From Methanosphaera sp. (lineage in GTDB: Archaea; Methanobacteriota; Methanobacteria; Methanobacteriales; Methanobacteriaceae): a DNA stretch of 64,000 nucleotides. The notes under the pieces were generated by a model. It saw only the letters and a list, made by a program, of their open reading frames with translations, ran no database searches and had not been told where the DNA came from. Made by a program: the position numbers and the translations under genes. Of the stretch, positions 14,381 through 64,000 are shown piece after piece. The DNA lies in assembly GCF_022768985.1 (NCBI RefSeq), contig NZ_JALEKL010000001.1:62001-126000 (forward strand), written 5' to 3'. Within the stretch, counting starts at the first letter, position 1; every line of letters starts with the position of its first letter.

Positions 14381-15009
14381 TTAATGTCCTCCATTATCAT
14401 CTGGCTTTTAACCATCCATTACAAGTAAATATTATATATTTCAATTTTTAATGGGAAAGTGAGAATTTTCCATAAAGATTTATGTTATATAATCTTGCTT
14501 GGCTGATTAAATGACCTATTAATAAAATATTTTATATATAATAAAAAATATTCTAATTTAAAACTCCTTAATGAGTGAGATAACTCATTCGCTCACAGTT
14601 TTAAGTATGTTAAAAATTAGTTATTATTTAATTATATATCTTATTTAATATAAAGTTATGTATTTATTCTACATAAATAAAAATTAGAATTACAATAAAA
14701 TTTACTAGTTTTTTGTAATTTAATATTTATAAAGAAGATTTTTCCTCTTCCATATTATATGTTATATTATAACTCATAAAAAAAAATTAATACTTTTAAA
14801 AATATGAATTTCCTAACTAATGCCTAAATTTTTAGATAAAATAAATTTTTTTTAGTTTTTATATTTATAAACATGAATTGTTAATATAAAAGAGTAACTA
14901 CAAACATTAATATTAATATATAAGAAAATAAAATTCAATCTATTTATTCTATTATGGATATAAAATGAAAATTAATCCTAAAAATAAATAAGGGTGGTGA
15001 AGTAATACC
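14381..15009. other. divergent A+T-rich gap with nested inverted repeats
   Basis: About 630 bases separating the minus-strand ribosomal cluster from the plus-strand genes that begin at 15010. Besides the rpl7ae promoter it holds a compact inverted repeat: AATGAGT at 14570-14576 pairs with ACTCATT at 14583-14589, and GTGAG at 14575-14579 pairs with CTCAC at 14592-14596. The rest is A/T runs. Because orc1/cdc6 lies about 1 kb further on, this gap is a candidate for replication-origin sequence, but I recognise no ORB element. Confidence 0.45.
14388..14440 (-). promoter_or_regulatory. promoter and ribosome binding site of the rpl7ae cluster
   Basis: Reading the minus strand, the A+T box AATATATAAT (14440-14431) is followed about 38 nt later by GGAGG (14392-14388) and then the rpl7ae ATG at 14380. 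That spacing suits an archaeal box A with initiation near 14410 and a leader of about 30 nt. Confidence 0.5.
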
Positions 15010-15846
15010 TTGAATGCCTATATTGAAATTCTAAGACCAGGCAATGCTTTCATGGCAGTAGTTGCAGTAATACTAATGGCAATTATTGACAAACAATTTA
15101 CAGCAAATGTATTAATAGGCTGTATACTAGTATTTATTGCAACAGGTGCAGGAAATGTAATAAATGACTACTTTGACTTTGAAATTGATAAGATAAACAG
15201 GCCAGATAGGGCAATACCATCAGGTCGTATAAAAAGAGAACATGCACTATATTATAGTATAATACTTTTTATAATCTCAATCATTCTATCATTTACAATA
15301 TCTACTGAAATTGTAGCAGTTGTAGTAATATGTGATATATTAATGATACTATATGCATATGATTTTAAAAAACGTATACTAATTGGTAATATAACAGTTG
15401 CACTACTTACTGCTATTACATTTATATATGCAGGAGTAATAGTTTCTGATGTAAATCTAGGATTTTATCTTGCAGTATTTGCATTTATCATGACATTATC
15501 TCGTGAAATAATAAAAGATACAGAAGATATAATAGGAGATCGTCAAGCTGGTGCAAATACATTTCCAATAAAATATGGACAAAAAAGTGCAGTAATAGTT
15601 GCTGTAATTTTAAATATAATTGCATGTATACTAACACCATTTCTATATACAACAGGAGTATTTGACATAGACTACCTTGTTGTTGTAGTATTTGCTGATA
15701 TTCTATTTTTAATATCAGCTAAAATGGCACTAAGTGATTATTCAAAAGAAAATCTTCATAAAGTTTCAAGTTACATGAAAATAGCAATGTTCATATCATT
15801 TATATCATTTATGCTTGGAAGCTGGATAAATATAATACCAGTATAG
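15010..15846 (+). CDS. UbiA-family prenyltransferase, likely digeranylgeranylglyceryl phosphate synthase
   Basis: 278 residues with eight or nine membrane helices. The first Asp-rich motif NDYFDFEIDKINRPDRAIPSG is near 51-71 and the second, REIIKDTEDIIGDRQAGA, near 165-182. Both bind the Mg-diphosphate of the prenyl donor. In archaea this subfamily adds the second geranylgeranyl chain to geranylgeranylglyceryl phosphate, making the core diether lipid. It starts at TTG behind GGTGGTGA. It is the first gene of the plus-strand block. Other UbiA functions are possible, but IKDTEDIIGDRQ is characteristic of the lipid enzyme. Confidence 0.85.
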   Translation: MNAYIEILRPGNAFMAVVAVILMAIIDKQFTANVLIGCILVFIATGAGNVINDYFDFEIDKINRPDRAIPSGRIKREHALYYSIILFIISIILSFTISTEIVAVVVICDILMILYAYDFKKRILIGNITVALLTAITFIYAGVIVSDVNLGFYLAVFAFIMTLSREIIKDTEDIIGDRQAGANTFPIKYGQKSAVIVAVILNIIACILTPFLYTTGVFDIDYLVVVVFADILFLISAKMALSDYSKENLHKVSSYMKIAMFISFISFMLGSWINIIPV

Positions 15847-19621: not shown

Positions 19622-19661
19622 ATTTATAAAAAATTAAAAATTAGGTATGGGTAGGTATAAT

Positions 19662-20423
19662 ATGATAGGTCTAATAGGTGGAACAGGAACAAAATCAATA
19701 CTTGACAATTATGATACAATTGAAACAAAAACCATAGATACAAAGTATGGAAAATCTCCTGAAATATCAATAATTGAAGTTGAATCAAAAAAAGTTGCAT
19801 ACATGCCACGACACAGCAAAGGACATAGTGTGCCACCACACAAGATAAATTATCGTGCAAACATAGAAGCACTTGATATGCTTGGTGTAAATAAGGTATT
19901 TGCAACAAATGCAGTAGGATCACTAGATACAAACATAAAACCTGGTGACATCCTAATTGCTGATAACTTCATAGACTTCACACATGGACGAAATAACACA
20001 TTCTTTGATGAGGAAGTTGTACATATTGATGCTACCAAGCCATTTTGTGATGACCTACGATCTAACCTTACAAGTAGTGGAGATGTACATCCATATGGTG
20101 TATATATTTCAACACAAGGACCAAGATTTGAAACAAAAGCTGAAATTGATTTCTACAGACTAATAGGTGGAAAAGTTGTAGGAATGACATTAACACCTGA
20201 AGTTATACTTGCACGTGAAAAACAGATGTGTTATGCAAGTGTATGTGTAATAAGTAACTATGCAGCTTCAATATCACCAACAAAACTTACAATATCAGAG
20301 GTAAGTGAGGCAATGGATGAGGCTAGTGAAAGACTAATAAATTTAATAGCATCTGCAATTAAGAAAACTGACACAGACTATGTATGTGAATGTCAAAGCA
20401 TACTAGATGATGCAATAATCTAA
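19662..20423 (+). CDS. purine nucleoside phosphorylase, MTAP/MTIP family, Asn in base pocket
   Basis: 253 residues from MIGLIGGTGT; an in-frame ATG at 19647 is possible, but the paralogue aligns from 19662. Phosphate site: GTGT, MPRHSKGHSVPPH at 48-60 and ATNAVGS. Base site: QGPRFET at 152-158 and SNYAAS with N199. An Asn here favours 6-oxopurines, as in PNP and S-methylthioinosine phosphorylase, the route used by methanogens to salvage methylthioadenosine after deamination. It is about 26 nt downstream of rtcB and immediately upstream of a close paralogue. Confidence 0.88.
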   Translation: MIGLIGGTGTKSILDNYDTIETKTIDTKYGKSPEISIIEVESKKVAYMPRHSKGHSVPPHKINYRANIEALDMLGVNKVFATNAVGSLDTNIKPGDILIADNFIDFTHGRNNTFFDEEVVHIDATKPFCDDLRSNLTSSGDVHPYGVYISTQGPRFETKAEIDFYRLIGGKVVGMTLTPEVILAREKQMCYASVCVISNYAASISPTKLTISEVSEAMDEASERLINLIASAIKKTDTDYVCECQSILDDAII

Positions 20424-20551
20424 ATTAAAGTTAATTTAAAATATTACACAAATAATTGACTAATATAAAATTAGATCTGATAAAACTATAAAAGAAATTA
20501 AATTATAAAATAATTATCAGATATTAAACTAATTTAACAGTGGTGAATAAT

Positions 20552-21313
20552 ATGATAGGAATTATAGGTGGAACAGGTACAGATTCATTACTTGACACAT
20601 ACGATGTAGTTGAAAGAAAAACCATAGATACAAAGTATGGCACATCACCTGAAATATCAATAATAGAAATGGGATCAAAACAGGTAGCATACATGCCACG
20701 ACACAGTAAAGGACATAGTATGCCACCACATAAGATAAACTACCGTGCAAACATAGAAGCACTAGATATGATCGGAGTAAATAAGGTATTTGCAACAAAT
20801 GCAGTAGGATCACTAGATACAAACATTATACCGGGTGATATTCTAATTGCTGATAACTTCATAGACTTTACACATGGACGAAATAACACATTCTTTGATG
20901 AGGAAGTTGTACATATTGACTGTACCATGCCATTTTGTAAAGATTTACGTAGCAATCTTATAAGTTGTGGTGATGTACATCCATATGGTGTATATATTGT
21001 AATTGATGGACCAAGATTTGAAACAAAAGCAGAAATTGACTTCTACAGACTAATTGGTGGAAAAGTTGTAGGAATGACATTATGTCCTGAAATTGTACTT
21101 GCACGTGAAAAACAGATGTGTTATGCAAGTATTTGTGCAGTAACAGATGATACAGCAGCAACAACAGAAGATAAGCTTACAATGACAGAAATTACTGAGA
21201 CAATGAAGTTGTGTAGTGAAAATTTACTTCAATTACTAACAAAAACAATTGAAAAAACAGATGAAAAATTTAAATGTGAATGTCAAAGCATACTAGATGA
21301 TGCAATTATTTAA
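20552..21313 (+). CDS. purine nucleoside phosphorylase paralogue, Asp-Asp in base pocket
   Basis: 253 residues aligning without gaps to the upstream gene, sharing MPRHSKGHS, ATNAVGSLDTNI, the DNFIDFTHGRNNTFFDEE stretch and the C-terminal CECQSILDDAII. The base pocket differs: the upstream SNYAAS is TDDTAAT here (D199, D200) and TQGPRFET is IDGPRFET. In MTAP an Asp at this place selects adenine bases, so this copy may prefer 6-aminopurines such as methylthioadenosine. I chose ATG 20552 because GTGGTGA precedes it; the GTGs at 20540 and 20543 are part of that site. A recent tandem duplication followed by divergence is likely. Confidence 0.85.
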   Translation: MIGIIGGTGTDSLLDTYDVVERKTIDTKYGTSPEISIIEMGSKQVAYMPRHSKGHSMPPHKINYRANIEALDMIGVNKVFATNAVGSLDTNIIPGDILIADNFIDFTHGRNNTFFDEEVVHIDCTMPFCKDLRSNLISCGDVHPYGVYIVIDGPRFETKAEIDFYRLIGGKVVGMTLCPEIVLAREKQMCYASICAVTDDTAATTEDKLTMTEITETMKLCSENLLQLLTKTIEKTDEKFKCECQSILDDAII

Positions 21314-34677: not shown

Positions 34678-37314
34678 ATGAGTAATAATGAGATTCCAAA
34701 AGACTATGATCATAGTCAGGAAGATGAATTACAAACTTTATGGCAGAAAAAGAATCTTTACAGATTTATTGGTGATGGAACAAAACCAACATACATCATA
34801 GATACACCACCACCATATCCAACAGGTAAACTTCACATGGGACACGTACTAAACTGGGTTTACATGGATATAATTGCAAGATATAAACGTATGAACAACT
34901 ATGATGTACTATTTCCACAAGGATGGGACTGTCATGGACTACCAACTGAGGTAAAAGTAGAAGAAATACATGACATCAAAAAGAACGATGTATCACGTGA
35001 AACATTCAGAAAATACTGTATTGACCTAACACATGAAAACATTGAAAAAATGCAAATACAAATGCAGAAAATGGGGTACTCCCAGGACTGGGATCATGAA
35101 TACATCACCATGCTTGATGAAAATAAGATGAGAACACAACTATCATTCCTTAAATTATATGATCAAGACATGATATACCAGGATATTCACCCAATTAACT
35201 GGTGTCCACGTTGTGAAACAGCAATAGCATTTGCAGAAGTAGAATATTCAGATAATACAACAAAACTAAACTATGTAAACTTCCCATCAACAGATGGAGA
35301 TGGAAATGTAACAATTGCAACAACAAGACCAGAACTACTCTGTGCATGTGTAGCAGTAGTTGTACATCCTGACGATGAAAGATACACCTATCTTCATGGA
35401 AAAACACTAACACTTCCAATATATGAACGTCAAGTAAAAGTAATAACTGATGAATCAGTAGACCCAGAATATGGTACAGGTGCTGTAATGATCTGTACAT
35501 TTGGGGATAAAACAGACGTTGAATGGGTAACACGTTATGATCTTGATGTTATCAATGCAATTGATGAAAAAGGAAACATGGAAGAAGTTGCAGGAAAATA
35601 CTCAGGAATGGCAATAAAAGAATGTCGTGCTGCAATAATTGAAGATCTTACAGATCTAGGATATCTAATAAAACAAGAAGATGTAGATCAAAATGTAGGA
35701 CTATGTTGGAGATGTAAAACTCCAATTGAAATAATGACCAAAAAACAATGGTTTGTAGCAGCAAGTAAGATGAGTGAAGACATCATAGAACAGGCAAAAG
35801 CTATGCGTTGGGTACCAGAACATATGTATCAAAGACTTGAAAACTGGACAAACTCCATGGACTGGGACTGGTGTATATCAAGACAAAGAATCTTTGCAAC
35901 CCCTATACCTGTATGGTACTGTGATGATTGTCACAATGTTGTACTTCCAAGTGAAGAACAACTACCTGTAGATCCAACAGTAGATCAGCCAGATCATGCA
36001 TGTAGCTGTGGATGTACACACTTCACACCAGAAGAAGATGTACTAGATACATGGATGGACAGCTCAATTACACCACTTACAATTGCAGACTGGCCAAATC
36101 CTGGATGGGAAAATATCTACCCTGCAACACTAAGACCACAAGGACATGACATTATAAGAACATGGGCATTTTATACTATTCTTAGATGTTATGCATTAAC
36201 TGATGAAAAACCATTTGATGAAATCATGGTAAATGGTATGGTATTTGGTGAAGATGGACATAAAATGAGTAAATCACTAGGAAATGTAATTGCACCAGAG
36301 GAAGTAATAGAAGAATATGGTGCAGATGCACTAAGACTCTGGGCTGCAAACAGTACACCTGGATCTGATGTACCATTTGGATGGAAAGATATAAAACATG
36401 CATATAAATTCCTACGTAAATTCTGGAATGCATTCAGATTTATCAGCATGAACCTTGATGATGAAACACCAGATGAACTTACATCAAATAATATCATAGA
36501 CAGATGGCTACTTTCAAAACTTAACCGTTTAAATAAAACAGTAACAAATGCATTTGAAGAATACAACTTTGCAAAAGCAGAACAGGCAATATATGACTTT
36601 GTATGGCATGACTTCTGTGATGAATACATAGAAGCTGTAAAATACAGATTATATGATGAACTTGACACAACAGCAGATGCAAAATACACACTCAAACATA
36701 CAATAGAAACAGTACTAAAACTTATGGCACCAATTACACCGTTCTTTGCAGATAGTGTAAATGGATATCTTGGAAATACTTCTGAAGATCTTCATATAGG
36801 TGGATGGCCAGAAATTAATGAAGAATTAATATCAGATGATATAGAACTTATTGGAAGCTATGCAATTGATATTATAGATGAACTTAGACGTTATAAATCA
36901 TCACATGGAATAGCACTAAATCAGCCACTTACAACTGTAAATATCTACACACAAGATATTGATAAAGTAGAAGCTACAGTTGATGATATTAAAAATACAA
37001 ATCGTGTAGAAAATATGGCTGTATTTGAAGGAAAACCAGACCTACAAGAGAAAGTTATAGAAGTAGAACCTGTTATGAGTGTTATAGGACCAGAATTTAA
37101 AGGTGATGCTAAGAAAATTATCAGCTACATCCAATCAACTGATGCATCAGTTATTGCACAACAACTTGAAGATAATGGATATGTAGATGTAGATGGTATA
37201 AGATTTACAGATGAGCATATCACCAAAAAATCAGAACTTCTCAGTGAAACAGGAGAAGTTGTAGATATACTAAAAACACCAAACATGAATGTAATACTTG
37301 AAGTACAAAAATAA
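34678..37314 (+). CDS. valS: valyl-tRNA synthetase
   Basis: 878 residues, class I synthetase with editing domain. [13 protein letters not shown] near 41-53 contains the HIGH-type motif and KMSKSLGN near 528 the KMSKS loop. Between them lies the CP1 editing domain ([20 protein letters not shown]), and a zinc-binding CPRC/CWRC pair is present. It charges tRNA-Val and hydrolyses mischarged threonine. ATG follows TAGGAGACAT. No T-box or other leader element was recognised. Confidence 0.97.
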
Positions 37315-37520
37315 ACAATAAAAAATGGGAAATAGTATTATATAAACTGAAGCATTAAACTTCAAATAAAAATATAATACAAATACACATCATATTTCCC
37401 CTTTTTTTCAAACTTTTCTCTTTTTTTTAGGAATTAAAATTTTTTTCTATTTTTCCACTAATAAAAAAATAATTTTAATAAAAATCCAACATAAATAAAT
37501 AATTAGGAGTTTAGATAGTT

Positions 37521-38798
37521 ATGGATTTAGAAGTAAAAAAAGTTGACCAAATAACAGGTACAATAAAAGCACCAGCATCAAAAAGCTACTCACACAGAGC
37601 CTTTATTGCAGCAGCACTAGCAGAAGGTGAATCAGTACTACGTGATCCCCTATATTCAGAAGATACTCTTGCAACCCTTGAAGCATGTGAAAAACTTGGA
37701 GCACTTTTCCAGAGATTTCCAGATAAATGTATAGTACAAGGAACAGCAGGATATATAAGAACACCAGATGATATAATAGATGTTAAAAACTCAGGAACAT
37801 CAATAAGAATACTAAGTAGTATTGCAGCAATAGCACCAAGAGCAAACTTCACAGTATTTACAGGTGATGAATCACTAAGAAAAAGACCAATGGCAGATCT
37901 TATAGATGCACTAGAAAATCTAGGTGTAATGATATACTCAGCACAAAACAATGGAACACCACCAATAATTGTAAAAGGTGGATTTGATGGTGGAGAAACA
38001 GACATAAAAGGTGATGTAAGTAGTCAATTTATATCATCAATACTAATGGCAGCAGCATACTCTAAAAATCCTGTAACATTAAATGTACGTGGAAAATTTG
38101 TATCAAAACCATACGTTAAAATGACACTCTCTGTAATGGCAAAGTTCGGAATACAATTTGAATATGACACATCAAATGAGCCAGAATACTCATCATACTA
38201 CATAGAACCACAAAAATATGAATGTACAGACTATACAATTGAAGGAGATTACTCATCAGCATCATACATAATTGCAGCAGCAGCACTAATGAAGTCAGAT
38301 ATAACAATTAAAAATCTCTACAAAAACTCAATGCAGGGAGATAAACTAATAGTTGACATAATCAAGAAAATGGGTGCAACAGTAGATGTTAATGAAATGG
38401 ACATTCACATAAAAAGTAATGGAAATCTCAGAGCATTTGACATAAACCTATCTAATGCACCAGATCTTCTTCCTACAGTTGCAATACTAATGGCAGCAGC
38501 AGATGGAACATCAAAAATTAGTGGTGTAGAACATGCAAGATTTAAAGAAACAGACCGTGTACATAACTGTGCAATAGAACTTGAAAATGTAGGAGTTGAA
38601 GTAGAGGAATTCCAGGATGGAATAATAATTAAAGGAAATCCAACAGGAGGAGTTGTTAACTCACACCTTGATCATCGTATGGTAATGGCATTTTATGTAC
38701 TGGGACTTAAAATTGGAAATATCACAATAAAAGATGCAGCATGCTATGATATATCATTCCCTAACTTCCTTGAAGTAATGCATAAAATATCACAATAA
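37521..38798 (+). CDS. aroA: 3-phosphoshikimate 1-carboxyvinyltransferase (EPSP synthase)
   Basis: 425 residues. It adds enolpyruvyl to shikimate 3-phosphate in aromatic amino acid synthesis. Signatures are APASKSYSHRAFIAAALA at 18-35, NSGTSIRI near 92, RKRPM near 119, GDVSSQFISSILMAA near 164, and the C-terminal catalytic segment RFKETDRVHN near 340. ATG lies behind TAGGAGTTTAG. The nth gene follows after 17 nt, so the two are probably co-transcribed although functionally unrelated. Confidence 0.97.
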   Translation: MDLEVKKVDQITGTIKAPASKSYSHRAFIAAALAEGESVLRDPLYSEDTLATLEACEKLGALFQRFPDKCIVQGTAGYIRTPDDIIDVKNSGTSIRILSSIAAIAPRANFTVFTGDESLRKRPMADLIDALENLGVMIYSAQNNGTPPIIVKGGFDGGETDIKGDVSSQFISSILMAAAYSKNPVTLNVRGKFVSKPYVKMTLSVMAKFGIQFEYDTSNEPEYSSYYIEPQKYECTDYTIEGDYSSASYIIAAAALMKSDITIKNLYKNSMQGDKLIVDIIKKMGATVDVNEMDIHIKSNGNLRAFDINLSNAPDLLPTVAILMAAADGTSKISGVEHARFKETDRVHNCAIELENVGVEVEEFQDGIIIKGNPTGGVVNSHLDHRMVMAFYVLGLKIGNITIKDAACYDISFPNFLEVMHKISQ

Positions 38799-39871: not shown

Positions 39872-41773
39872 ATGAGTAAATCTAACGATACATATACAAA
39901 GCCTATCGTGTATGTATTAAATCCTTCATGTCAAATTGAAGATCTTGAAATTGGAAGTGACTATGAAGGAGTCATTACTAGAGTGGAAAAATATGGATTT
40001 TTTGTAAGTCTAAGTAAAAGTGTATATGGACTTCTAAGAACCCGTAATCCAAAAGAAAAAGTTGGAGACAAGGTTGTTGTAAAAATATCAGAAATCAAGC
40101 CACACAAAGGTAAGATGGATGTAGATCTTGGATATTCCAAAACCAAATATGGTAATGACTATGAAACAATTACAGTAAAACGTAACATTAAAAAGACAAA
40201 AATTGAAGACTTATCAGAAGATATAATAGGTCGTAACATAGCAATTAATGGTGAAATCATCCAGATTCAACAAACAAGTGGACCTACAATCTTTACAGTA
40301 CGTGATGAAACAGACATTACATGGGCTGCAGCATTTAATGAGCCTGGTGTAAGAATGTATCCTGAACTTGAAGTAGATGATGTTGTAGAAATTCTAGGTG
40401 AAGTATCACTACACAGTGGTAAAATTCAGATAGAATCAGAATCCATTGAAAAACTTGATGATGATGAAGCTGAAGAACTTAGAAAATCTATAGATCTTGC
40501 AGTAGATAAGAAATCTGAATCACCAGATACATCTGTAATGATTGAAAGTGAAGTACTAGATAAACTAAGACCAAAACTTGCAAAAGCTGCAAAGGCAATT
40601 AGACGTGCAATCTATGATGGAAGATCAATTCTTGTACGCCACCATGCTGATGCTGATGGTATATGTTCTGGTATTGCAGTAGAACAAGCTGTACTTCCAT
40701 TATTACGCGAAGAAAGTAATGATGCAGATGCAGAATGGCACTTCTTTAAAAGATCACCAAGTAAAGCACCATTTTATGAACTTGAAGATGTTGTAAAAGA
40801 TTTATCATTTGCACTTGAAGATCAAGAACGTCACGGACAAAAACTACCACTTCTTGTACTACTTGATAATGGTTCAACAGAAGAAGATGTAGCAGCATTA
40901 AGACATTCAAAAGTATTTGGAATTGAATCTGTTGTTGTAGATCATCACTATCCTGGTGAAGTTGAAGATGGACGTGCACTTATTGATGATTATGTAGATA
41001 TACATGTAAATCCATACCTTGTAGGTGGAGATTCACAACTTACAGCAGGAGCACTAGCAGTAGAACTTGCAGGTATGATAAATCCTGATATTCGTGATAA
41101 AATCAGACATTTCCCTGCAATAGCAGCAGTTGGTGATCATGCAGAATGTAGTGAAGTTGACCAGTATCTTGAAATTGCAAAAGAAGAAGGTTATTCACGT
41201 GATGATTTAGATCGTATAGCAACATGTGTTGACTTTGAAGCATACTTCCTAAGATTTAATAATGGTCGTGGAATTATGAATACTCTACTTGGTCTTGAAG
41301 AAAAAGAACGTCAAGAAGAGTTAGTTGACATATTAATGGCAGAATCAGATAAAAGAGTTGACACTCAACTTAAAGCAGCATTCCCTAATGTTGAAACAGT
41401 ATTCTTTGATAATGGTATTCAACTTAACAGATTAGATGTTGAAAAATATGCTCATAAATTCACATATCCTGCACCTGGTAAAACAACAGGTTATGTACAT
41501 GATAAGATTGTACAACAAAAAGGTGAAGATCAGCCTATCATGACACTTGCAAATGGTCCTGATTTTGCTGTACTTAGAGCAACAGAAGTTATTAAAAATG
41601 ATTTTGACTTTAACTTAAACAATGTAATTACAAAAATACAACAAGAACTTCCACAGGCAGGAGCTGATGGTGGAGGACACGAAGTTGCAGGTTCTCTAAA
41701 ATTTGTTGAAGGTTTAAGAGATGAAGTTCTAGAATTGTTTATTAAAGAGGTTAAAGATCTAAATAGAGATTAA
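39872..41773 (+). CDS. archaeal RecJ-like DHH phosphoesterase with S1 and OB domains
   Basis: 633 residues. The N-terminal S1 RNA-binding domain has DYEGVITRVEKYGFFVSLSK near 29-48. A second OB-like nucleic-acid domain spans about 110-200 (INGEIIQIQQTSGPTIFTVRDE). The DHH core has VRHHADADGICSG near 251-263 and VVVDHHYPGE near 352-361, and the DHHA1 end has GADGGGHEVAGS near 596. It is an Mn-dependent 5'-3' exonuclease on single-stranded DNA or RNA; archaeal relatives associate with the replisome (GINS) or act in RNA turnover. The S1 domain and length match the methanogen group whose precise partner I cannot assign. Confidence 0.88.
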   Translation: MSKSNDTYTKPIVYVLNPSCQIEDLEIGSDYEGVITRVEKYGFFVSLSKSVYGLLRTRNPKEKVGDKVVVKISEIKPHKGKMDVDLGYSKTKYGNDYETITVKRNIKKTKIEDLSEDIIGRNIAINGEIIQIQQTSGPTIFTVRDETDITWAAAFNEPGVRMYPELEVDDVVEILGEVSLHSGKIQIESESIEKLDDDEAEELRKSIDLAVDKKSESPDTSVMIESEVLDKLRPKLAKAAKAIRRAIYDGRSILVRHHADADGICSGIAVEQAVLPLLREESNDADAEWHFFKRSPSKAPFYELEDVVKDLSFALEDQERHGQKLPLLVLLDNGSTEEDVAALRHSKVFGIESVVVDHHYPGEVEDGRALIDDYVDIHVNPYLVGGDSQLTAGALAVELAGMINPDIRDKIRHFPAIAAVGDHAECSEVDQYLEIAKEEGYSRDDLDRIATCVDFEAYFLRFNNGRGIMNTLLGLEEKERQEELVDILMAESDKRVDTQLKAAFPNVETVFFDNGIQLNRLDVEKYAHKFTYPAPGKTTGYVHDKIVQQKGEDQPIMTLANGPDFAVLRATEVIKNDFDFNLNNVITKIQQELPQAGADGGGHEVAGSLKFVEGLRDEVLELFIKEVKDLNRD

Positions 41774-44512: not shown

Positions 44513-45892
44513 TTGGAGAATGTAGAAGCTAGTAATTCAAATATTGAAATGATACGTGGTGATCCTAAAGTTGCACTTAAAAAGCTTGCCTGGCCATTAA
44601 TTTTTACACTTGTTCTTAACATGGTTTATAATCTTGTTGATAGAATATGGGTTGCAGGTCTTGGTGCAGGTCCTCTTGCTGCTATTGGTTTTATTTTACC
44701 TATCTTTATGATGATTAGTGGTATTGGTAATGGTTTTGGATCTGGTGCAAATTCTGTTATTTCACGATATATTGGTGCAAAAGATAAGGATAATGCATCA
44801 AATAGTGCAATTCATTCGATTCTTATTGGTATTGTTATATCAATATTAATTCCACTTTTGCTTTTGCCATTTCTTGGTGATTTACTTGTTATGATGGGTG
44901 CAGGTAATGTTTTATCTTATGCATCAGATTATGCAACTATTATTATTTTAGGTTCATTTACATTGGTACTTAATGGTATTCTTTCAAGTCAGCTAAGGGC
45001 TGAAGGTGATATTAAGCGTGCATCACGTGCTCTTATAATTACTGGTGTTCTTAATATGGCTATTGATCCTATTTTTATCTATACTTTTAATCTTGGAGTT
45101 CGTGGTGCTGCTATTGCAACGATATTATCTGCACTTGTTGCAACAGTTCTTATGTTTTACTGGATTTTAGTTAAAAAAGATACATATGTTAATGTGGAGG
45201 GTAGTTATTTTAAGTTTTCACCTACAATTATACGTGAAATTATTTCTGTTGCAATTCCTGGTACTGTTGAGGAAGTTATAATGTCAAGTGTTGCTATTAT
45301 GATTAATGCTACTCTTGCAGTAATTGCTACAACTGAGGTTATTGCAGCATATACTGCAGCTTGGAGTATTGTTGATATTGCTATGATGATTCCTCTTGGT
45401 ATTGCTACTGCAGCAATTACTGTTGCAGGTGTTGCATATGGTGCACGTGATATTAGGCGTGTTGATTTTGTGTGTAATTATTCAATAAAGCTTTCAATGA
45501 TTCTTGTGGTTGTTGTATTTATTGTTATTGAAATTTTTGCACCTCAAATTGCAATGATCTTTTCATATTCATCTCCTGGTGCATTTAATGGATTAGTTTG
45601 TGATGTTTTAAGAATTCTTGCATTGTTTATATTAACTGTTCCTGCAGGTATTTGTTGTGCATTTGTATTTCAGGCTATTGGACGTGGTATGATTTCACTT
45701 ATCTTAACAATTCTTCGTGAGGTTGTATTTGTTCTTATTGCATTATTTATTCTTGTTGATGTGATGCATCTTGGTGCTATTGGTGTTTATCTTTGTATGA
45801 CTCTTGGTGGTCTTATGGGTGGTATTGTTGCAATTGTAGCATTTAAGTATTATATCAGAAAAATTGAAGCCTTTGAGGGAGCTTCAATTTAA
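44513..45892 (+). CDS. MATE-family multidrug/Na+ or H+ antiporter, copy 1
   Basis: 459 residues, twelve hydrophobic segments in two six-helix halves. The opening IRGDPKVALKKLAWP and the first-helix region MVYNLVDRIWVAGLG are typical of NorM/DinF-like MATE exporters, and SSQLRAEGDIKRASRALI is the usual segment in the cytoplasmic part. It starts at TTG just after GGTGAT. It is a tandem paralogue of the gene at 46166. Synonymous codons are mostly T-ending (ctt, att, ggt), the opposite of copy 2. Confidence 0.92.
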   Translation: MENVEASNSNIEMIRGDPKVALKKLAWPLIFTLVLNMVYNLVDRIWVAGLGAGPLAAIGFILPIFMMISGIGNGFGSGANSVISRYIGAKDKDNASNSAIHSILIGIVISILIPLLLLPFLGDLLVMMGAGNVLSYASDYATIIILGSFTLVLNGILSSQLRAEGDIKRASRALIITGVLNMAIDPIFIYTFNLGVRGAAIATILSALVATVLMFYWILVKKDTYVNVEGSYFKFSPTIIREIISVAIPGTVEEVIMSSVAIMINATLAVIATTEVIAAYTAAWSIVDIAMMIPLGIATAAITVAGVAYGARDIRRVDFVCNYSIKLSMILVVVVFIVIEIFAPQIAMIFSYSSPGAFNGLVCDVLRILALFILTVPAGICCAFVFQAIGRGMISLILTILREVVFVLIALFILVDVMHLGAIGVYLCMTLGGLMGGIVAIVAFKYYIRKIEAFEGASI

Positions 45893-46165: not shown

Positions 46166-47560
46166 TTGCATCAAAATGAAAATGATGACACAACTAAAGT
46201 AGATGTAATACGAGGAGATCCAAAAGTAGCACTAAAAACCATAGCATGGCCTATGATATTTACACTTGTACTAAACATGATATATAACATGGTAGATAGA
46301 GTATGGGTAGCAGGACTAGGAGCAGATCCACTAGCTGCAATAGGATTTGTAGCACCAATATTTATCATAATAGGTGGAATAGGAAATGGATTTGGAGCAG
46401 GAGCAAACTCCCTCATATCACGATACATCGGAGCAAAAGATAAACAAAACGCATCAAATAGTGCAATACATTCAATACTAATAGCCCTGGCACTATCAAT
46501 AATAATACCAATAATACTCATGCCACTACTAAAACAATTACTACTTCTTATGGGAGCAGAAAGTGTACTTAAACTTGCAACAGACTATGCAACAATCATC
46601 ATTATTGGAGGATTTACACTCATATTCAATGGAGTACTTTCAAGTCAACTAAGAGCAGAAGGAGATGTAAATCGTGCAACAAAAGCACTTGTAATAACAG
46701 GTATATTAAACATAATAATAGATCCAATATTCATATATGTACTAAATCTAGGAGTAGCAGGAGCAGCAATAGCAACAGTATTATCAGCACTTGTTGCAAC
46801 AGTCCTAATGCTTTACTGGATTTTAGTTAAAAAAGATACATATGTTGATGTAGGACGTGACCAATTTAAATTCAGTCCAAAAATTATCAAAGAAATCATT
46901 GCAGTAGCAGTACCAGGAAGTGTAGAACAAGTAATTATCTCACTCATATCAATTGTAATGAATGCAGTACTTGCAATGGTAGCATCAACAGATGTAATTG
47001 CAGCATTCACAGCAGCATTTAGTATAATACAGGTAGGAATGATGTTCCCAGTAGGAATTGCAACAGCAGCAATTACAGTTGCAGGAGTAGCATATGGAGC
47101 ACGTGACTTTAAAAGAGTTGAATTTGTATGTAAATATGCAATAAAACTATCAATGTCTATAGTAATAGTAATTGTAGCATTAATGGCAATCTTTGCACCA
47201 CAAATTGCAATGCTATTTAGTTATTCAGCAGCAACAGCATCACTCAATGCACTAGTAACTGAAGCACTACGTGTATTACTTGTATTTTTAATTGGTGTAC
47301 CTGTAGGATTATGCTGTGCATTTACATTCCAAGGAATAGGAAAAGGAACAATATCACTCATACTTACAATTCTAAGAGAAGCAGTATTTGTACTAGTATT
47401 TTTATACTTATTTGTATTCGTACTTGGAATGGGACAAATAGGAGCATATCTATCAATGGGTATGGCAGGAGTACTCGGATCAGTAGTAGCAGCAATACTC
47501 TTTAAATACTACATGAATAAACTTCAAAAATTTGAAGGAAAAGCACCAGATGAATGCTAA
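46166..47560 (+). CDS. MATE-family antiporter, copy 2
   Basis: 464 residues, colinear with copy 1: VIRGDPKVALKTIAWPM, MIYNMVDRVWVAGLGADPLA, SSQLRAEGDVNRATKALVI, and a VGIATAAITVAGVAYGARDF segment shared almost exactly. Twelve membrane segments. TTG start behind GGAGAGGTGA. Codon choice is A-ending (cta, ata, aca, gga), so the copies diverged strongly at the DNA level while the proteins stayed alike. A MarR regulator follows on the same strand and may control it. Confidence 0.92.
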   Translation: MHQNENDDTTKVDVIRGDPKVALKTIAWPMIFTLVLNMIYNMVDRVWVAGLGADPLAAIGFVAPIFIIIGGIGNGFGAGANSLISRYIGAKDKQNASNSAIHSILIALALSIIIPIILMPLLKQLLLLMGAESVLKLATDYATIIIIGGFTLIFNGVLSSQLRAEGDVNRATKALVITGILNIIIDPIFIYVLNLGVAGAAIATVLSALVATVLMLYWILVKKDTYVDVGRDQFKFSPKIIKEIIAVAVPGSVEQVIISLISIVMNAVLAMVASTDVIAAFTAAFSIIQVGMMFPVGIATAAITVAGVAYGARDFKRVEFVCKYAIKLSMSIVIVIVALMAIFAPQIAMLFSYSAATASLNALVTEALRVLLVFLIGVPVGLCCAFTFQGIGKGTISLILTILREAVFVLVFLYLFVFVLGMGQIGAYLSMGMAGVLGSVVAAILFKYYMNKLQKFEGKAPDEC

Positions 47561-53235: not shown

Positions 53236-54741
53236 CTAATTACTATTTCTTTTTGAAATAACTGAATTTAATTTATTTATCTCATATACCACAACAAGTA
53301 GTATTGGCCATACACCTATTCTTCCAATCCAGAATTCAAGAATCATTACAAGTTTAACAACAGCTGGTGCTCCAACATTAATATATTCAGGTCCAACACC
53401 AATATTACCAATAGCAGATGCAGAAAGAGCATAAGCAACTTGTATATCATTACAAAATACCAGAATTATAGTTGCACTTACAACAAATATCAACAGATAG
53501 GCTATAATATACATTATAATTGGCCTAATTTCTGTATATGACAATTCAATATTACGACCATCATGTTGTACTTTTTTTACATTCACTGAATTTTTAGGTA
53601 AAAAGATTGTCTGACCTTCCCACCATACACTTTTAAGAAGTAAATATATGTTATAAAGCTTAATTCCCCCAGCTGTAGAACATATTCCTCCTCCACAAAA
53701 CATTACAATTATCAGTATATGATAACAAAATGGTGACCACATATTAATATCTGTTGATGTAAATCCAGTACTTGACATTACAGAGATAACCTGGAAAAGT
53801 GCATGTCTGAGTGTTATAAATACATCAGAGCCATATGTATGACTTGAAAGATGTGATAATGTTATAAGAATTGTAGCAGTAGCAATTAATGCAAACATTG
53901 TCTTTGTTTCAGAATCCTTATAAAATGCCTTGAAATTTCCTTTTATTAATCTGTATATAAGTATAAAGTTTGTACTTCCAAGTAACATCTGTATTATTGT
54001 TACAATCTGCACAGGAAGTGAACTAAATCCTCCAACACTGTCAGGATATATTGAAAATCCTCCAGTTGCAATAGCTGCCATCATATAACAGAGTGAATCA
54101 AATAAGTCAAGACCAACCATTATATATAATGCCACACCAATAGCTGAAATTAGCAGATATAACTTTATAAATATGATAGATGTATGACGTATATTTGGTG
54201 TCATCTGCTCTGTTCTACCTTCTGCTGTGTAGAGCTGATTTAATTTTCCTGTTGTTGGAACAAGTACTAGTATAAATATAATGAAACCAAGTCCACCAAG
54301 CCATTGTGTTAATGCTTGCCAAAGTGCAAGAGAATATGGTGTTCTTGATGCTGGTATAAATGAAAATCCTGTTGTTGTAATACCAGACATTGCCTGGAAG
54401 AATGAATCAATTACACCAAGAGTACCTGAAAAGTAGTATGGAAGTCCTGCAAGTAGTGCTGCAACACCCCATATACCAAATACAAAAATTAAATCTCCCT
54501 TAAGTGAAAGTTGTGTCTTTTTATAGTCTTTGTAGCTATAATACAATATCAAACCAGGAACAAGTGATATGATAGCTGATGCTATAAATGAGTAAAGATA
54601 CCTTATGCTATCATTATAAATAATAGCACATCCTACAGGTAATAATAGAAATAATCCAAGGATAATACATATAATTCCAGTAAAATGGGCAATAGCCTTA
54701 ATTTCACTTGCTTTTAATTTGTTTATAAAAAACGAATTCAT
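53236..54741 (-). CDS. trkH: Trk-type potassium uptake channel subunit
   Basis: 501 residues with four membrane-pore-membrane repeats. The first filter is SGITTTGFS near 118-126; others are ATGGFS near 226, SSTGFTS near 320 and IGNIGVG near 445. An Arg within the filter-lining helix region is usual. It takes up K+ together with a nucleotide-binding TrkA/KtrA ring; no trkA gene is adjacent, so the partner must be elsewhere. ATG at 54741 has GCGGGTAAT upstream. Confidence 0.93.
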   Translation of the reverse strand: MNSFFINKLKASEIKAIAHFTGIICIILGLFLLLPVGCAIIYNDSIRYLYSFIASAIISLVPGLILYYSYKDYKKTQLSLKGDLIFVFGIWGVAALLAGLPYYFSGTLGVIDSFFQAMSGITTTGFSFIPASRTPYSLALWQALTQWLGGLGFIIFILVLVPTTGKLNQLYTAEGRTEQMTPNIRHTSIIFIKLYLLISAIGVALYIMVGLDLFDSLCYMMAAIATGGFSIYPDSVGGFSSLPVQIVTIIQMLLGSTNFILIYRLIKGNFKAFYKDSETKTMFALIATATILITLSHLSSHTYGSDVFITLRHALFQVISVMSSTGFTSTDINMWSPFCYHILIIVMFCGGGICSTAGGIKLYNIYLLLKSVWWEGQTIFLPKNSVNVKKVQHDGRNIELSYTEIRPIIMYIIAYLLIFVVSATIILVFCNDIQVAYALSASAIGNIGVGPEYINVGAPAVVKLVMILEFWIGRIGVWPILLVVVYEINKLNSVISKRNSN

Positions 54742-58358: not shown

Positions 58359-58534
58359 TATCTTATTTTTCCTTTTTATTGTCTCTTATTTTATAGATAA
58401 ATAGTTTATATATTAAATAATTTTACATCAATTTTTATCTTATTTTTAACAAATATATTAAATAAATCTTTACATTAAAAAAAAAGAAAACTTAAACCCA
58501 AAAATAAATAAATTAGAGGAGATGAGTATTAATT

Positions 58535-59167
58535 TTAAATAATATTACACAAACTGAGAAAAGAATTATTCTAACAGTATTTTTCTGTATGTCATTTACA
58601 ATTTCAAATCTAATAACTGTAAAAATAGTAGATCTTGGAGTATTTAATCTTATAACTCCAGCTGCAGCAATTATATATCCTCTCATCTATGTTCTTACAA
58701 ATGTTATTACACAAGCATATGGTGAGGATGCAGCACAAAGAACACTAGTACTTGGAATTTTAGCTGATGTACTTTTTGTATGTATGACATCATTATTACT
58801 TATTCTTCCTTCACCTGCAAATTACACAGGTGATAGTGCTTTAGCATTTGTATTTATGAAAACTCCACGTATACTTGTTGCATCATATATCAGCTATCTT
58901 ATAGGAAATATTGTAAATGCACATCTTACAGTTAAATTAAAAAATGGATGTTCAAATGCTACACTTAGAAATATGCTTGCAATAGCAATTGGTGAGCTTC
59001 TTGATAATATAATGTTTATTACACTTGCATTTATCTTTGAAGTTTCATTTTCTGAAATTATAGTTATGATCTTTACACACTGGATATTAACTCTTATATG
59101 GATTGTTATAGCACAGCCTTTTATTCCAAGACTCCTAAATTGGGTATCATCTGATAAAGTAGAATAA
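58535..59167 (+). pseudogene. YhhQ/VUT-family transporter, array copy 1, no canonical start codon
   Basis: The frame is homologous to its six neighbours from NNITQTEKRIILTVFFCMSF to the C-terminus and intact for about 211 codons. It has the family core LIYVLTNVITQAYGEDAAQRTL, LPSPANYTGDSALAFVF and GELLDNIMF, and six membrane helices. At the expected start (58535) there is TTA, where copies 3 and 6 have TTG; the codon before is ATT, and no ATG, GTG or TTG lies in frame between the upstream stop (58523) and the internal ATG at 58589. A GAGGAGATGAG ribosome binding site is well placed. Starting at 58589 would lose half of helix 1. It may be decaying or use a rare start. Family role: uptake of 7-deazaguanine precursors. 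Confidence 0.7.
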
Positions 59168-59346
59168 TTAAATTATATCTCCTCCTTCTTTTTTTTGTTT
59201 ATTTTTATTCCATAAAATTTATTACTATATTTTAATATAAATAATAAGTAGAGCTTTTATTATTTTAAAAATGAGTTGTTAACTACCTACTTTTTTTAAT
59301 TTAGCTTTATTTTTTATCTAATTAATTTTAAGGGAGGAAAAAACAT

Positions 59347-59994
59347 ATGGATTTAAATATTACACCTACTGAGAAAAGATTGATTATTACTGTATTTTTC
59401 TGTATGTCATTTACAATTGCAAATCTTATTACAGTAAAAATTATTGATCTTCACATACTTGGTCTTGTAGTTCCTGCTGGTGTTCTTATTTATCCTCTTG
59501 TTTATGTTCTAACAAATGTTATTACAGAAGCATATGGTGAGGATGCAGCACGCAGAACTTTAATTCTTGGTATTGCAGCTGATGTACTTTTTGTGTTTAT
59601 GACAACATTACTGCTTGTTCTTCCTTCACCTGCAAATTATGCTGGTGATTCAAGTTTAGCATTTGTATTTACACAAACACCTAAAATACTTGTTGCATCA
59701 TATATCAGTTATCTTATTGGTAACCTTGTAAATGCACGTCTTACAACTATTGTAAATCGTAATGACTCAAATCATGCACTTAAAAACATGTTTGCAGTAG
59801 CAATGGGTGAACTTGTAGATAACATTATATTTATTGGTCTTGCATTTATTGGAGAAGTTCCAGTTATGGAAATTGCAATTATGATATTCAGCCACTGGGT
59901 ATTAAGTTTAATTTGGATTTCTATTGCAGAACCATTCACACTTAAAGTTCTTAAATGGGCAAAAGATGACACAAATGTAGAAGCAACAGCATAG
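59347..59994 (+). CDS. YhhQ/VUT-family (queuosine precursor) transporter, array copy 2
   Basis: 215 residues, six membrane helices. ATG behind GGGAGGAAAAAACAT, the best-formed start in the array. Core motifs are TEKRLIITVFFCMSFTIANL, VVPAGVLIYPLVYVLTNVIT, TEAYGEDAARRTL, LPSPANYAGDSSLAFVF and MGELVDNIIF. In bacteria this family (YhhQ, TIGR00697) imports preQ0/preQ1-type 7-deazapurines. In archaea preQ0 is the precursor of archaeosine at tRNA position 15, so precursor salvage is the likely role; the substrate is inferred. Confidence 0.85.
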   Translation: MDLNITPTEKRLIITVFFCMSFTIANLITVKIIDLHILGLVVPAGVLIYPLVYVLTNVITEAYGEDAARRTLILGIAADVLFVFMTTLLLVLPSPANYAGDSSLAFVFTQTPKILVASYISYLIGNLVNARLTTIVNRNDSNHALKNMFAVAMGELVDNIIFIGLAFIGEVPVMEIAIMIFSHWVLSLIWISIAEPFTLKVLKWAKDDTNVEATA

Positions 59995-60097
59995 ATTCTA
60001 CATTTTCTTACCTTTTTTTATGAGAGAATAAAGATTCTCTTCTTCTTTTTTTTATAAATTTATTTTAAAGTAAAATTTTTAGGGATGGATTAAAAAA

Positions 60098-60729
60098 TTG
60101 AATTTAAATATTACAAAATCTGAAAAAAGAATAATACTAAGTACAATTTTCTGTATTGCCTTTATGACAGCAAATCTAATAACAGAAAAACTTATTGAAA
60201 TAAAAGCATTAGGTCTTATATTTCCAGCAGGTGTTCTTATCTATCCTCTTGTATTTGTTATTACAAGTGTTATTACAGAAGTATATGGTAAGGATATTGC
60301 ACATAGAACATTGATAATTGGAATTATTGCAAATCTATTTTTTATAGTGATGACTACAATCATACTTTATCTTCCATCACCATCGTATTATACTGTGATT
60401 TAAGTCTTATGTATGTATTTGGTCAGGCTCCAAGATTTTTCTTCTCAGGATGTGTTGGATATTTTGCAGGAAATATTGTAAATGCTCATATTACAGCATT
60501 TGTTGCTCGTCGTAGTAGTAATCCTGATTCTGAGTTAAAAAACTTATTTCCTATAACAGTAGGTATTTTTGTTGATTTAATGGTCTTTATGACTATGGCA
60601 TATCTTGGAAAGCTTTCATTTATTGTGATATTTTCTATGACATTTAATTACTGGATTCTTAATGTTTTATGGGTTTTAATTGCAAAGCCATTTATTGGAT
60701 GGACTCTCAGGTGGGCAAAAACAGAATAG
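60098..60729 (+). pseudogene. YhhQ/VUT-family transporter, array copy 3, frameshifted
   Basis: TTG start at 60098 gives NLNITKSEKRIILSTIFCIA and continues normally to LPSPSYYT, then hits TAA at 60401. The rest (LMYVFGQAPRFFFSGCVGY to TLRWAKTE) continues in another frame to 60729. The break is at ACTGTGATTTAAG near 60395: other copies have GGTGAT (Gly-Asp) here, so a single G is missing. Restoring it gives a full protein of about 210 residues. It is either a pseudogene from a one-base deletion or a sequence error in a GG pair. Confidence 0.8.
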
Positions 60730-60927
60730 AAAAAAAGGAAGTGAAGTTATATTTTTTTCTACATATTTTTTTTCTTTTTTTTACTAAATTTTTATTATCT
60801 TATCTTTATAGATATATCAATTAAGTTAAACTAATTATGGATTTTTTAACTTTTTTTTTATGGAAATAAATATTATTATTTTTTTTTGATTTAATTAACT
60901 TTTTATTTGGAGGTTTGATTAGTTATT

Positions 60928-61557
60928 TGGAATTTTAAGTTATCTGCAGTTGAAAAGCGTATTGTTATTGGTACAATCTTTTGTATGGCATTTACCACTG
61001 CAAATATTATTACAACAAAGCTTATTAATCTTGAATTTATACATCTTATGATTCCAGCAGGAATTCTTATCTATCCACTTGTATTTGTCCTAACTAGTGT
61101 TATGACAGAAGCCTATGGTGAGCGTGTTGCACAAAGAACTCTTATTATTGGTATTTGTTTTAATCTTTTCTTTCTTTTTACGGTGATGCTTGTTGCATAT
61201 CTTCCATCACCACCAGGATATATGGGAGATAAACATCTGCGTTTTGTATTTGGTGCAGCACCCAGATTTTTTGTTGCAGGAATTGCAGGTTACTTTGCAG
61301 GAAACCTTGTAAATGCACATCTTACAGCAATTGTTGCACAACGTAGTGGTGGTTCTGATTCATCACTTAAGAATTTATTTGCAATAGCTGTTGGTATTCT
61401 TGTTGATATTATTGTATTTATTGGAGTGTCATATATTGGTATTATTCCAGTTGGTACTATTGCATATATGGTGTTTAATTACTGGATTATTAATATTGTA
61501 TGGATTATTATTGCAAAACCACTTGTTAGTTGGACACTCAGATGGGCTAAGTCCTAG
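60928..61557 (+). pseudogene. YhhQ/VUT-family transporter, array copy 4, start codon TGG
   Basis: Nearly identical to copy 6 (61938) and of identical length, 210 codons if counted from the same place. At the position where copy 6 has its TTG start, this copy has TGG. The ribosome binding site GGAGGTTTGATT is kept and the frame is otherwise open and unbroken. The next in-frame ATG is 60985, which would remove 19 residues and part of helix 1. Motifs: IPAGILIYPLVFVLTSVMTEAYG, LPSPPGYMGDKHLRFVFGAAPRFF and VGILVDIIVF. Function could survive only with non-canonical or internal initiation. Confidence 0.75.
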
Positions 61558-61813
61558 AATCTATTTCGAAATTATGAATTTTAACTCTTTAAATTAATTG
61601 ATAGTTTGTTTTATAACAAATTATTCTATTTTTATTATTCTTTTCTTATTTTTTTAATTATTATCTTTTATTTTCTAAAATAAAAACTTATTTATCTTAT
61701 TTAACTAAATATAATAAGTATATTAAGTTAAAAATTGAAATAAATTATTTTTATTAATTTTTAATTTAACTTAATTTTAATAAAATAAATAAAGTAGTGG
61801 AGGTGTATTATTT

Positions 61814-61879
61814 TTGGAATTAAAACTAGTTTTTGCTGAAAAAAGAATTCTTAGAAGAGCAATCTTTTCAATAACATAA
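61814..61879 (+). pseudogene. 5' fragment of a VUT-family gene (remnant of copy 7)
   Basis: TTG start behind GTGGAGGTGTATTATTT, then 21 codons ELKLVFAEKRILRRAIFSIT and a stop. The ribosome binding site, start and most codons match the beginning of the intact gene at 62801 (ELKLDYTEKRILTGVIFSIA). Similarity ends at about 61876, where sequence resembling the upstream side of copy 6 begins. The upstream 150 bases also match those before 62801. It is the relic left by a segmental duplication. Confidence 0.85.
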
Positions 61880-61937
61880 TATTAGTAAATATTTTTAAAT
61901 TTAATTAATCTTTTTAATGGAGGTTTGATTATTTATT

Positions 61938-62567
61938 TTGAATTTTAAATTATCTGCAGTTGAAAAGCGTATTGTTATTGGTACAATTTTTTGTATATCT
62001 TTTATCACTGCAAATATTATTACAATAAAACTTATTAATCTTGAATTTATACATCTTATGATTCCAGCAGGTATTCTTATCTATCCATTGGTGTTTGTCT
62101 TAACTAGTGTGATGACAGAAGCCTATGGTGAGAGGGTTGCACAGAGAACTCTTATTATGGGTATCTTTGCAAATCTTTTCTTTCTTCTTATGGTGATGCT
62201 TGTTGCATATCTTCCACCACCATCAGGGTATATAGGAGATGAACACCTACGTTTTGTATTTGGTGCAGCACCCCGGTTTTTTGTTGCAGGTATTGCAGGT
62301 TACTTTTCAGGTAATCTTGTAAATGCTCGTCTTACATCGATTCTTGTAGCACGTAGTGGTGGTTCTGATTCATCACTTAAGAATTTATTTGCAATATCAA
62401 TTGGTATTCTTGTTGATATTATTGTATTTATTGGAGTGTCATATATTGGAATAATACCTATTGCCACTATTGCATATATGGTGTTTAATTACTGGATTAT
62501 TAATGTTGTATGGGTTATTATTGCAAAGCCTCTTGTTAGTTGGACACTCAAGTGGGCAAAATCCTAG
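61938..62567 (+). CDS. YhhQ/VUT-family (queuosine precursor) transporter, array copy 6
   Basis: 209 residues, TTG start with GGAGG upstream (61919-61923). Six membrane helices, IPAGILIYPLVFVLTSVMTE, AYGERVAQRTL, LPPPSGYIGDEHLRFVFGAAPRFF, GILVDIIVFIGVSYIG and the end SWTLKWAKS. It is a recent duplicate of copy 4: long stretches are identical in DNA, and the offset is 1010 bp. Minor differences lie mainly in helix 3 and in the loop around residue 145. Substrate as for copy 2, inferred from family. Confidence 0.85.
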   Translation: MNFKLSAVEKRIVIGTIFCISFITANIITIKLINLEFIHLMIPAGILIYPLVFVLTSVMTEAYGERVAQRTLIMGIFANLFFLLMVMLVAYLPPPSGYIGDEHLRFVFGAAPRFFVAGIAGYFSGNLVNARLTSILVARSGGSDSSLKNLFAISIGILVDIIVFIGVSYIGIIPIATIAYMVFNYWIINVVWVIIAKPLVSWTLKWAKS

Positions 62568-62800
62568 AATTTATCTATAAATTGTATTTTAAATAGTTAA
62601 AATCATTTTGTAGTTAGTTTTAGGACTAATTATTCTTTTTTTTATTATTTTTTTTTAGTTTCTAAAATAAAAACTTATTTTATCTTATTTTACTAAATAT
62701 AATAATTATATTAATTTAAAAATTGAAATAAATTTTTTTATTAATTTTTAATTTAACTTAATTTTAATAAAATAAATAAAGTAGTGGAGGTGTATTATTT

Positions 62801-63424
62801 TTGGAATTAAAACTTGACTATACTGAAAAAAGAATTCTTACGGGAGTAATCTTTTCAATAGCATTAATTATGGCAAATATTATCACAATCAAAGTTATTG
62901 ATCTACAGTTATTTGATCTTAGAATCCATGCAGGATTAATAATCTATCCAATTGTTCATATAATTTCAAGTATAATGGCAGATGTATACTCTAAAAAAGA
63001 TGCTCAGAGAAACATTATCTTTGGTCTTGGAAGTTACATTCTATTTCTTATAATGATTATATTAGTTGTATTTCTTCCATCACCTGCAATTGGTAATGTA
63101 GATATAACAGGAGCATTTAATACCATGCCAAGACCTTTACTGGCTGCTAGTGTTGCATTTATACTAGGAAATTTTATAACAGTTGCCATGACATTACATG
63201 TGAAAAGACGATATATTAAATCAAAATCAATACTTAAAAATATAGTAGCAATAGATGTGGGATTAATAGTAGATACAATTATTTTCATATTAATTGCATA
63301 TATTGGAGTATTACTACCAGATAGAATACTTTCAATAGTTATTGTAAATTCAGTATTCTATATTATATGGACGGCAATTCTTACACCTGTTATTGGATGG
63401 TTTAAAAAGTGGATAAAATCCTAA
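62801..63424 (+). CDS. YhhQ/VUT-family transporter, divergent array copy 7
   Basis: 207 residues, TTG start behind GTGGAGGTG. The protein keeps the fold and the EKRI opening but departs at family motifs: LRIHAGLIIYPIVHIISSIMADVYSKKDAQRNI in place of the PAG, VLT and TEAYG elements, and a basic loop VKRRYIKSKS. The Asp of the late motif is kept (DVGLIVDTIIF). Loss of the TEAYG glycine suggests a different substrate or a relaxed copy. Codons are more A-ending than in copies 4 and 6, so it is older than the 4/6 duplication. Confidence 0.8.
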   Translation: MELKLDYTEKRILTGVIFSIALIMANIITIKVIDLQLFDLRIHAGLIIYPIVHIISSIMADVYSKKDAQRNIIFGLGSYILFLIMIILVVFLPSPAIGNVDITGAFNTMPRPLLAASVAFILGNFITVAMTLHVKRRYIKSKSILKNIVAIDVGLIVDTIIFILIAYIGVLLPDRILSIVIVNSVFYIIWTAILTPVIGWFKKWIKS

Positions 63425-63517
63425 AAATTTAGAAGAAAAACTATTAATTTTAAGTATTATTCAAAAAATTAAATTTAAATTAAAGAAATTTTATATAAAA
63501 AAAGGAGGATTATAAAC

Positions 63518-64000
63518 ATGGTCTTAGATAAACTAAAAGATAATGTTGAAGTTTCATATATTGAAAAACGTTTAATTATCACAATATTATTTTGTATATC
63601 ATTAACAATTGCAAATATACTTACAATAAAACTTGTTGATATTAACATTGCAAATCTTGTAGCACCAGCAAGTGTTATTATATATCCATTAACTTATGTA
63701 CTAATAAGTATTATCACAACAGTTTATGGTGAAAAAACAGCACAAAAGACATTAATACTGGGTATTATCACTGTTGTATTGTTTGTATTTATGACAACAT
63801 TACTTCTATATGTTCCATCTCCTGGATTTTACAAAGGAGATGTAAGTCTTAATTATGTATTTCAAAAGATTGATTCTATTGTTGTAGGATCACTTATTGC
63901 ATATATTATAGGAAATCTTATAACAATAAAGCTTACAGGAAATATTTCACGAAGTAATAATAAATTTAAATATAAAAACTTCTTTGCAATAGCAATAGGT
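63518..64000 (+). CDS. YhhQ/VUT-family transporter, array copy 8, cut by window end
   Basis: 161 codons are visible, open to the last base. ATG at 63518 follows AAAGGAGGATTATAAAC. The N-terminus is longer than in the other copies (VLDKLKDNVEVSYIEKRLI). Motifs: LVAPASVIIYPLTYVLISIITT, VYGEKTAQKTLILGII, VPSPGFYKGDVSLNYVF, and FFAIAIG at the end. Helices 1-5 are present; the rest lies outside. The array may continue beyond the window. Confidence 0.85.
   Translation, partial: MVLDKLKDNVEVSYIEKRLIITILFCISLTIANILTIKLVDINIANLVAPASVIIYPLTYVLISIITTVYGEKTAQKTLILGIITVVLFVFMTTLLLYVPSPGFYKGDVSLNYVFQKIDSIVVGSLIAYIIGNLITIKLTGNISRSNNKFKYKNFFAIAIG

Follow-up and report, generated by a model that had tools for sequence, protein, structure and literature searches.

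Nine tandem Vut_1 (COG1738) transporter genes at one locus of a Methanosphaera genome: growth in place and divergence on a conserved core

The window analyzed here, a stretch of 64,000 nucleotides, corresponds to positions 62001-126000 of contig C1 of G000, the 1.61-Mb genome of a gut-type methanogen, assembled in 15 contigs with a completeness of 98%. From window position 58526 onwards, it carries head-to-tail genes of the Vut_1/COG1738 family, all on the same strand, and this array comprises nine genes and ends at G000:C1:127737. Seven units plus a fragment had been reported in the original prediction; seven consecutive same-strand units and one fragment are indeed present in window 58526-64000, but the array itself consists of nine units and passes the window edge. 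Extending the contig, as had been proposed there, located the end of the array and added V8 and V9, which follow V7, whose own end lies 156 bp beyond the window edge. About 1.7 kb past that edge ordinary sequence resumes on the same contig, leaving the array unbroken with both flanks. The features are listed below; coordinates on L011 equal the window position minus 50000.

58526-59167, + strand: V1, Vut_1 gene with an open frame and no canonical start at the expected place
59347-59994, + strand: V2, intact; starts with ATG, has a Shine-Dalgarno sequence, and corresponds to the one Vut_1 orthologue found in other Methanosphaera
60098-60729, + strand: V3, Vut_1 gene with a 1-bp deletion near 60394-60397; frameshift, stop TAA at 60401
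60869-61893, + strand: tandem duplication of about 1,009 bp, first copy (V4, intergenic sequence, first codons of a V6 gene)
60919-61557, + strand: V4, Vut_1 gene, 88% identical to V5 in amino acids; start TGG where V5 has TTG
61814-61879, + strand: remnant between V4 and V5, comprising the initial 21 codons of another V6 gene; right-hand end of the duplication
61878-62881, + strand: tandem duplication, second copy (V5, intergenic sequence, V6 start)
61938-62567, + strand: V5, intact Vut_1 gene, TTG start
62801-63424, + strand: V6, intact Vut_1 gene, the most divergent; end branch of 2.8 changes per site
63518-64000, + strand: V7, Vut_1 gene truncated by the window edge; its full length is L011:13518-14156
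L011:14405 or 14429-15049: V8, Vut_1 gene beyond the window; start uncertain (TTG at 14405 or ATG at 14429)
L011:15057-15737: V9, Vut_1 gene beyond the window, last of the array

Ordinary starts were found in V2, V5, V6, V7, and V9, and lesions in three of the nine copies, namely the 1-bp frameshift of V3 and the absence of a standard start codon in V1 and V4. The start region of V1 reads TGA-GTA-TTA-ATT-TTA-AAT, with no in-frame ATG, GTG, or TTG at the expected place; its first in-frame ATG, at 58589, falls within the first helix. V1 shares 68% amino acid identity with V2 and retains all ten residues of the family core. We defined this core without the array, from 47 other relatives, as the ten positions whose conservation among them reaches 97% or more. 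In V3, both halves match the Vut_1 family and, because all ten core residues remain, its lesion is either recent or a sequencing error.

Profile searches confirmed the family that had been assigned from the sequence. Against Pfam PF02592 Vut_1 (cut-off 27.2 bits), the complete in-window copies score 87-116 bits (V2, 114.5 bits), the in-window units including the V3 halves 41-116 bits, and V7, V8, and V9 75-103 bits. The TIGR00697 model “queuosine precursor transporter” (cut-off 50.95 bits) is matched by the eight copies without a frameshift at 60-94 bits, and by the complete ones within the window at 62-94 bits, both V3 halves falling below the cut-off. The strict model for E. coli-type YhhQ, NF008406/PRK11212 (cut-off 252 bits), was not reached by any copy, the best score being 41.4 bits for V1 and the others being lower or without a match, and in this the array proteins differ from E. 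coli YhhQ. With the Vut_1/COG1738/QPTR family, including E. coli YhhQ, they have in common the ten most conserved positions, which are largely kept, and a predicted bundle of membrane-length helices. The claim that every unit bears an EKR-I / YPL-V / TE-YG / LPSP core proved too strong, since a comparison of the motifs revealed ADVYSK in V6, TTVYGE in V7, DKK and LPTA in V8, and AKY and LPGN in V9.

The AlphaFold2 model of V2 (mean pLDDT 84) predicts helices at residues 7-28, 49-63, 65-91, 101-136, 143-167, and 173-206, together with a short one at 44-47. A search by sequence found no solved homologue, and the best Foldseek match of the model was ThiT, an S component of an ECF transporter (probability 0.99, TM 0.45-0.52), with an E value of 0.16 that is not significant. 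This weak likeness (TM ~0.5) would suit a scheme in which the copies are interchangeable S components of one shared ECF energizing module, which we consider highly improbable. Only two EcfT genes are present in G000, both in CbiM-CbiN-CbiQ-like metal transporter operons (genes identified partly by eye), a search of this genome for PF12822 proteins found none, and E. coli possesses YhhQ while lacking the central ECF components (PMC5372724). In G000, none of the types of shared ECF module that were looked for was found; as both EcfT genes belong to CbiM/CbiN/CbiQ-type operons, this candidate was rejected, and the array proteins probably act alone.

The suggestion that the expansion is unusual was borne out for this genome of the Methanosphaera type, its copy number being far above that of its relatives. 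A Vut_1 match was detected in 102 of 139 genomes of the family, mostly one or two per genome. Among 96 Methanobacteriota genomes of at least 90% completeness, with one genome per species, the window genome gave ten matches (nine units, V3 being counted twice), G007 gave six (three whole, the others partial or interrupted by stops), and all remaining genomes gave three or fewer; intact copies elsewhere in Methanobacteriota number 0-3 per genome. A genome-wide search revealed no Vut_1 genes outside the array in G000, and no description of the array was found in the literature searched. G007, which belongs to another genus of the family, likewise has duplicated Vut_1 genes, with two copies side by side and, elsewhere, one more intact copy along with broken fragments, but these fall into a distant, different Vut_1 clade and the expansion is much smaller. 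Compared with Vut_1 and YhhQ systems in general, the array stands apart by its nine tandem copies and by having neither a neighboring Q/archaeosine gene nor a preQ1 riboswitch.

Single-copy orthologues occur in other Methanosphaera and some Methanobrevibacter (G108, G110, G111, L080-L086), with one copy per genome versus nine in the array. In G108, G110, and G111, the orthologue occupies the same place as the array, adjoining or near a homologue of the 260-aa gene that lies 3' of the array and has no NCBIfam match. The Vut_1 gene of G108 is flanked directly upstream by 5S rRNA and downstream by the 260-aa gene; with the 5S rRNA gene in this position, hidden copies past the contig end are ruled out for G108. 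V2 and the G108 gene are 85% identical in amino acids and are sisters in the tree. The nine copies cluster with the G108 gene in one group with a support of 91/99, or 97/97 after removal of the three longest branches (V6, V7, and V8), and the expansion therefore belongs to this lineage. Horizontal import of the array was rejected, given that every copy clusters with the orthologue of G108 and that the array sits at the ancestral locus. Thus the array grew in place from a single gene at the ancestral locus, V2 being the counterpart of the single orthologue. The duplications could predate or postdate the split from G108: a tree in which the array is a clade of its own without the G108 gene gives p-AU values of 0.25 and 0.39, and one in which V3-V9 branch outside the single-copy genes a p-AU of 0.31.

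The youngest step of this growth can be read directly from the DNA. The stretches 60869-61893 and 61878-62881 are 86.4% identical over 1,030 aligned columns. A single tandem duplication, about 1,009 bp long and spanning V5 and the first codons of V6, gave rise to V4 together with the 21-codon remnant. As one such duplication covers both, the remnant needs no separate deletion. In this archaeon, the locus displays an ongoing tandem expansion in which early lesions and the most recent duplication can both be seen.

Most array pairs are only 32-58% identical in amino acids. By the NG86 method, V2 and the G108 gene show a dN of 0.14 at a dS of 0.87, whereas the pairs V2/V7 and V2/V9 reach a dN of 0.43-0.46 at a dS of 0.77-0.80; the dS values are near saturation in this AT-rich genome, and ages are therefore only rough. 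Differences at fourfold sites amount to 0.35-0.54 between V2 and V3 or V5-V9, versus 0.42 between V2 and the G108 gene. Even with dS near saturation, the paralogues have clearly changed about threefold faster at the protein level than the V2/G108 pair. Their evolution is accelerated yet constrained: every paralogue without a frameshift keeps 8-10 of the ten family-core residues (eight in V6), while only 18-31 of the 42 residues conserved among the single-copy orthologues are retained per paralogue, that is, 11-24 have been lost (pooled Fisher test against the family core, p 5e-11). The copies differ at the orthologue-specific positions 79, 109-123, 137, and 175-187. At positions 79, 109, and 115, where D, T, and L are nearly invariable in the single orthologues, V4, V5, V8, and V9 all carry N, G, and F, and the same three changes are seen in V3; of these residues, N79 and G109 are typical of the remaining Vut_1 family. 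We take this pattern to mean that, probably, specificity has been relaxed or has shifted while the transporter core was maintained.

Such divergence bears on the view that the array serves dosage, with many copies of one importer increasing the uptake of one scarce compound. The 88% identity of V4 and V5 does show that the array includes recent duplicates of the same type, but with most pairs this dissimilar, many orthologue-specific residues lost, lesions accumulating in copies, and genes present by which preQ0 can be made, we regard dosage amplification as improbable, and divergence rather than pure dosage, in line with the prediction, is supported.

A more serious rival is a non-adaptive course of birth and death, in which recombination duplicates the gene, constraint is relaxed, copies are slowly lost, and only V2 matters. 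The lesions in three of the nine copies are in line with it, and so are the long end branches of V3 and V6-V9 in the tree, which relaxed constraint alone could produce. Moreover, G000 contains another species-specific tandem duplicate, a pair of MTAP-type genes. On the other hand, a simulated drifting frame of the same composition stayed open in less than 1% of runs at 82% nucleotide identity, and most array pairs compared, at a nucleotide identity of 57-76%, have frames that are open at a divergence where neutral drift would close them. The core residues have been retained while other positions changed, and the dN/dS of V4/V5 is about 0.25. Open frames and a kept core argue against decay as the cause for most copies; relaxed constraint with no new function acquired would account for the data nearly as well as diversification and is the main rival, and we consider birth and death as a whole to be rather unlikely, though less so than any other competitor.

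The MTAP-type pair (S-methyl-5'-thioadenosine/purine nucleoside phosphorylase) lies at window positions 19647-20423 and 20540-21313; its members are 78% identical, and the gene is single in all 19 other genus genomes searched. It is suggestive, with two cases, that both species-specific duplications, the MTAP pair and the Vut_1 array, touch purine salvage.

In E. coli, YhhQ transports preQ0 and preQ1 and is required for their salvage (PMC5372724), which lends some appeal to the idea that the array offsets an inability to make preQ0, with obligate salvage for archaeosine. This idea has been largely refuted and is hardly credible any more. G000 encodes QueC (218 bits, cut-off 150), a QueD-family protein (78.5 bits, just below the QueD cut-off of 89) whose gene adjoins a QueE-like gene (best matches to QueE models, all under their cut-offs), and TgtA (637 bits, cut-off 350). 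QueC and a QueD-family protein were found in 20 of 20 genus genomes searched, with or without a Vut_1 gene, so genus members with zero Vut_1 genes have them too. With QueC, QueD, QueE, and TgtA genes present, preQ0 auxotrophy is not supported, salvage of preQ0 is not forced, and salvage driven by missing synthesis, as entertained in the original prediction, finds no support. No Q, preQ0, or archaeosine genes were seen next to the array, such linkage being common for YhhQ but not obligatory, and L011 gave no match to an Rfam riboswitch, so that riboswitch control of the array was rejected as well. A 239-aa protein encoded at L076:4478-5194 (G000:C5) matches approximately the first 45% of the model for ArcS, the archaeosine synthase alpha (96 bits, cut-off 440); similar short homologues are found across the genus, and judging by this match the protein is possibly a split or reduced ArcS.

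Members of the family are known to differ in substrate, E. coli transporting preQ0 and preQ1 and Chlamydia queuine (PMC11130926), and subfamilies with differing substrates have been proposed by the authors of the YhhQ paper (PMC5372724). Against this background, we somewhat favor the reading that one Vut_1 (COG1738/QPTR) importer gene of Methanobacteriaceae underwent a lineage-specific tandem expansion at its ancestral locus and that its copies have drifted in specificity toward a range of related bases. Repeated tandem duplication of one gene would have led to nine units, of which V2 would have stayed near the ancestor and the others would have changed fast, mostly keeping open frames, while V3, and probably V1 and V4, may be undergoing loss. 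The surviving copies would most likely be solo membrane importers with drifted substrate-determining positions, and jointly they may take up related bases, purines or 7-deazapurines, with the host still able to make preQ0. Import as the direction of transport, the class of substrate, and divergence as a sign of different substrates are what we infer here; the scavenging of several related nucleobases, as originally suggested, is plausible. That the importers have split the ancestral role and gained different substrates, be it other purine, 7-deazapurine, or vitamin-like molecules, is a tentative proposal which we would put below even chances. The array fits functional diversification, with a relaxed birth-and-death course as the possible alternative.

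According to the characterization of YhhQ in 2017, the specificity determinants of COG1738 are still undefined (PMC5372724). Nine paralogues of recent ancestry with a kept core offer a ready series for mapping them and, if the copies do have different substrates, the array would be a natural series of COG1738 specificity variants in one archaeon and may serve as a natural experiment on how new functions arise within a transporter family.

Some further observations concern the surroundings of Vut_1 genes. The single Vut_1 gene of G123 (L055, 9138-9785) lies between homologues of window genes 34678-38795 and 39872-41770, a place other than that of the array, which means that this locus has undergone rearrangement in the genus. 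A TrkH-type potassium transporter (by eye) is encoded a short way upstream of the array, at window positions 53236-54741; since TrkH-type homologues also occur close to the Vut_1 genes of G112 (L048) and G115 (L051), synteny may extend beyond the 260-aa gene. The contig L079 (CAMOWA010000022.1, from a MAG titled “uncultured Bacillales bacterium”) carries nearly the same genes in nearly the same order as Methanosphaera G110 and is probably a mis-binned contig or part of a mislabelled MAG. Finally, window positions 44513-45892 and 46166-47560 encode adjacent, similar proteins resembling MATE-type multidrug/toxin exporters (by eye), followed by a MarR-like regulator at 47803.
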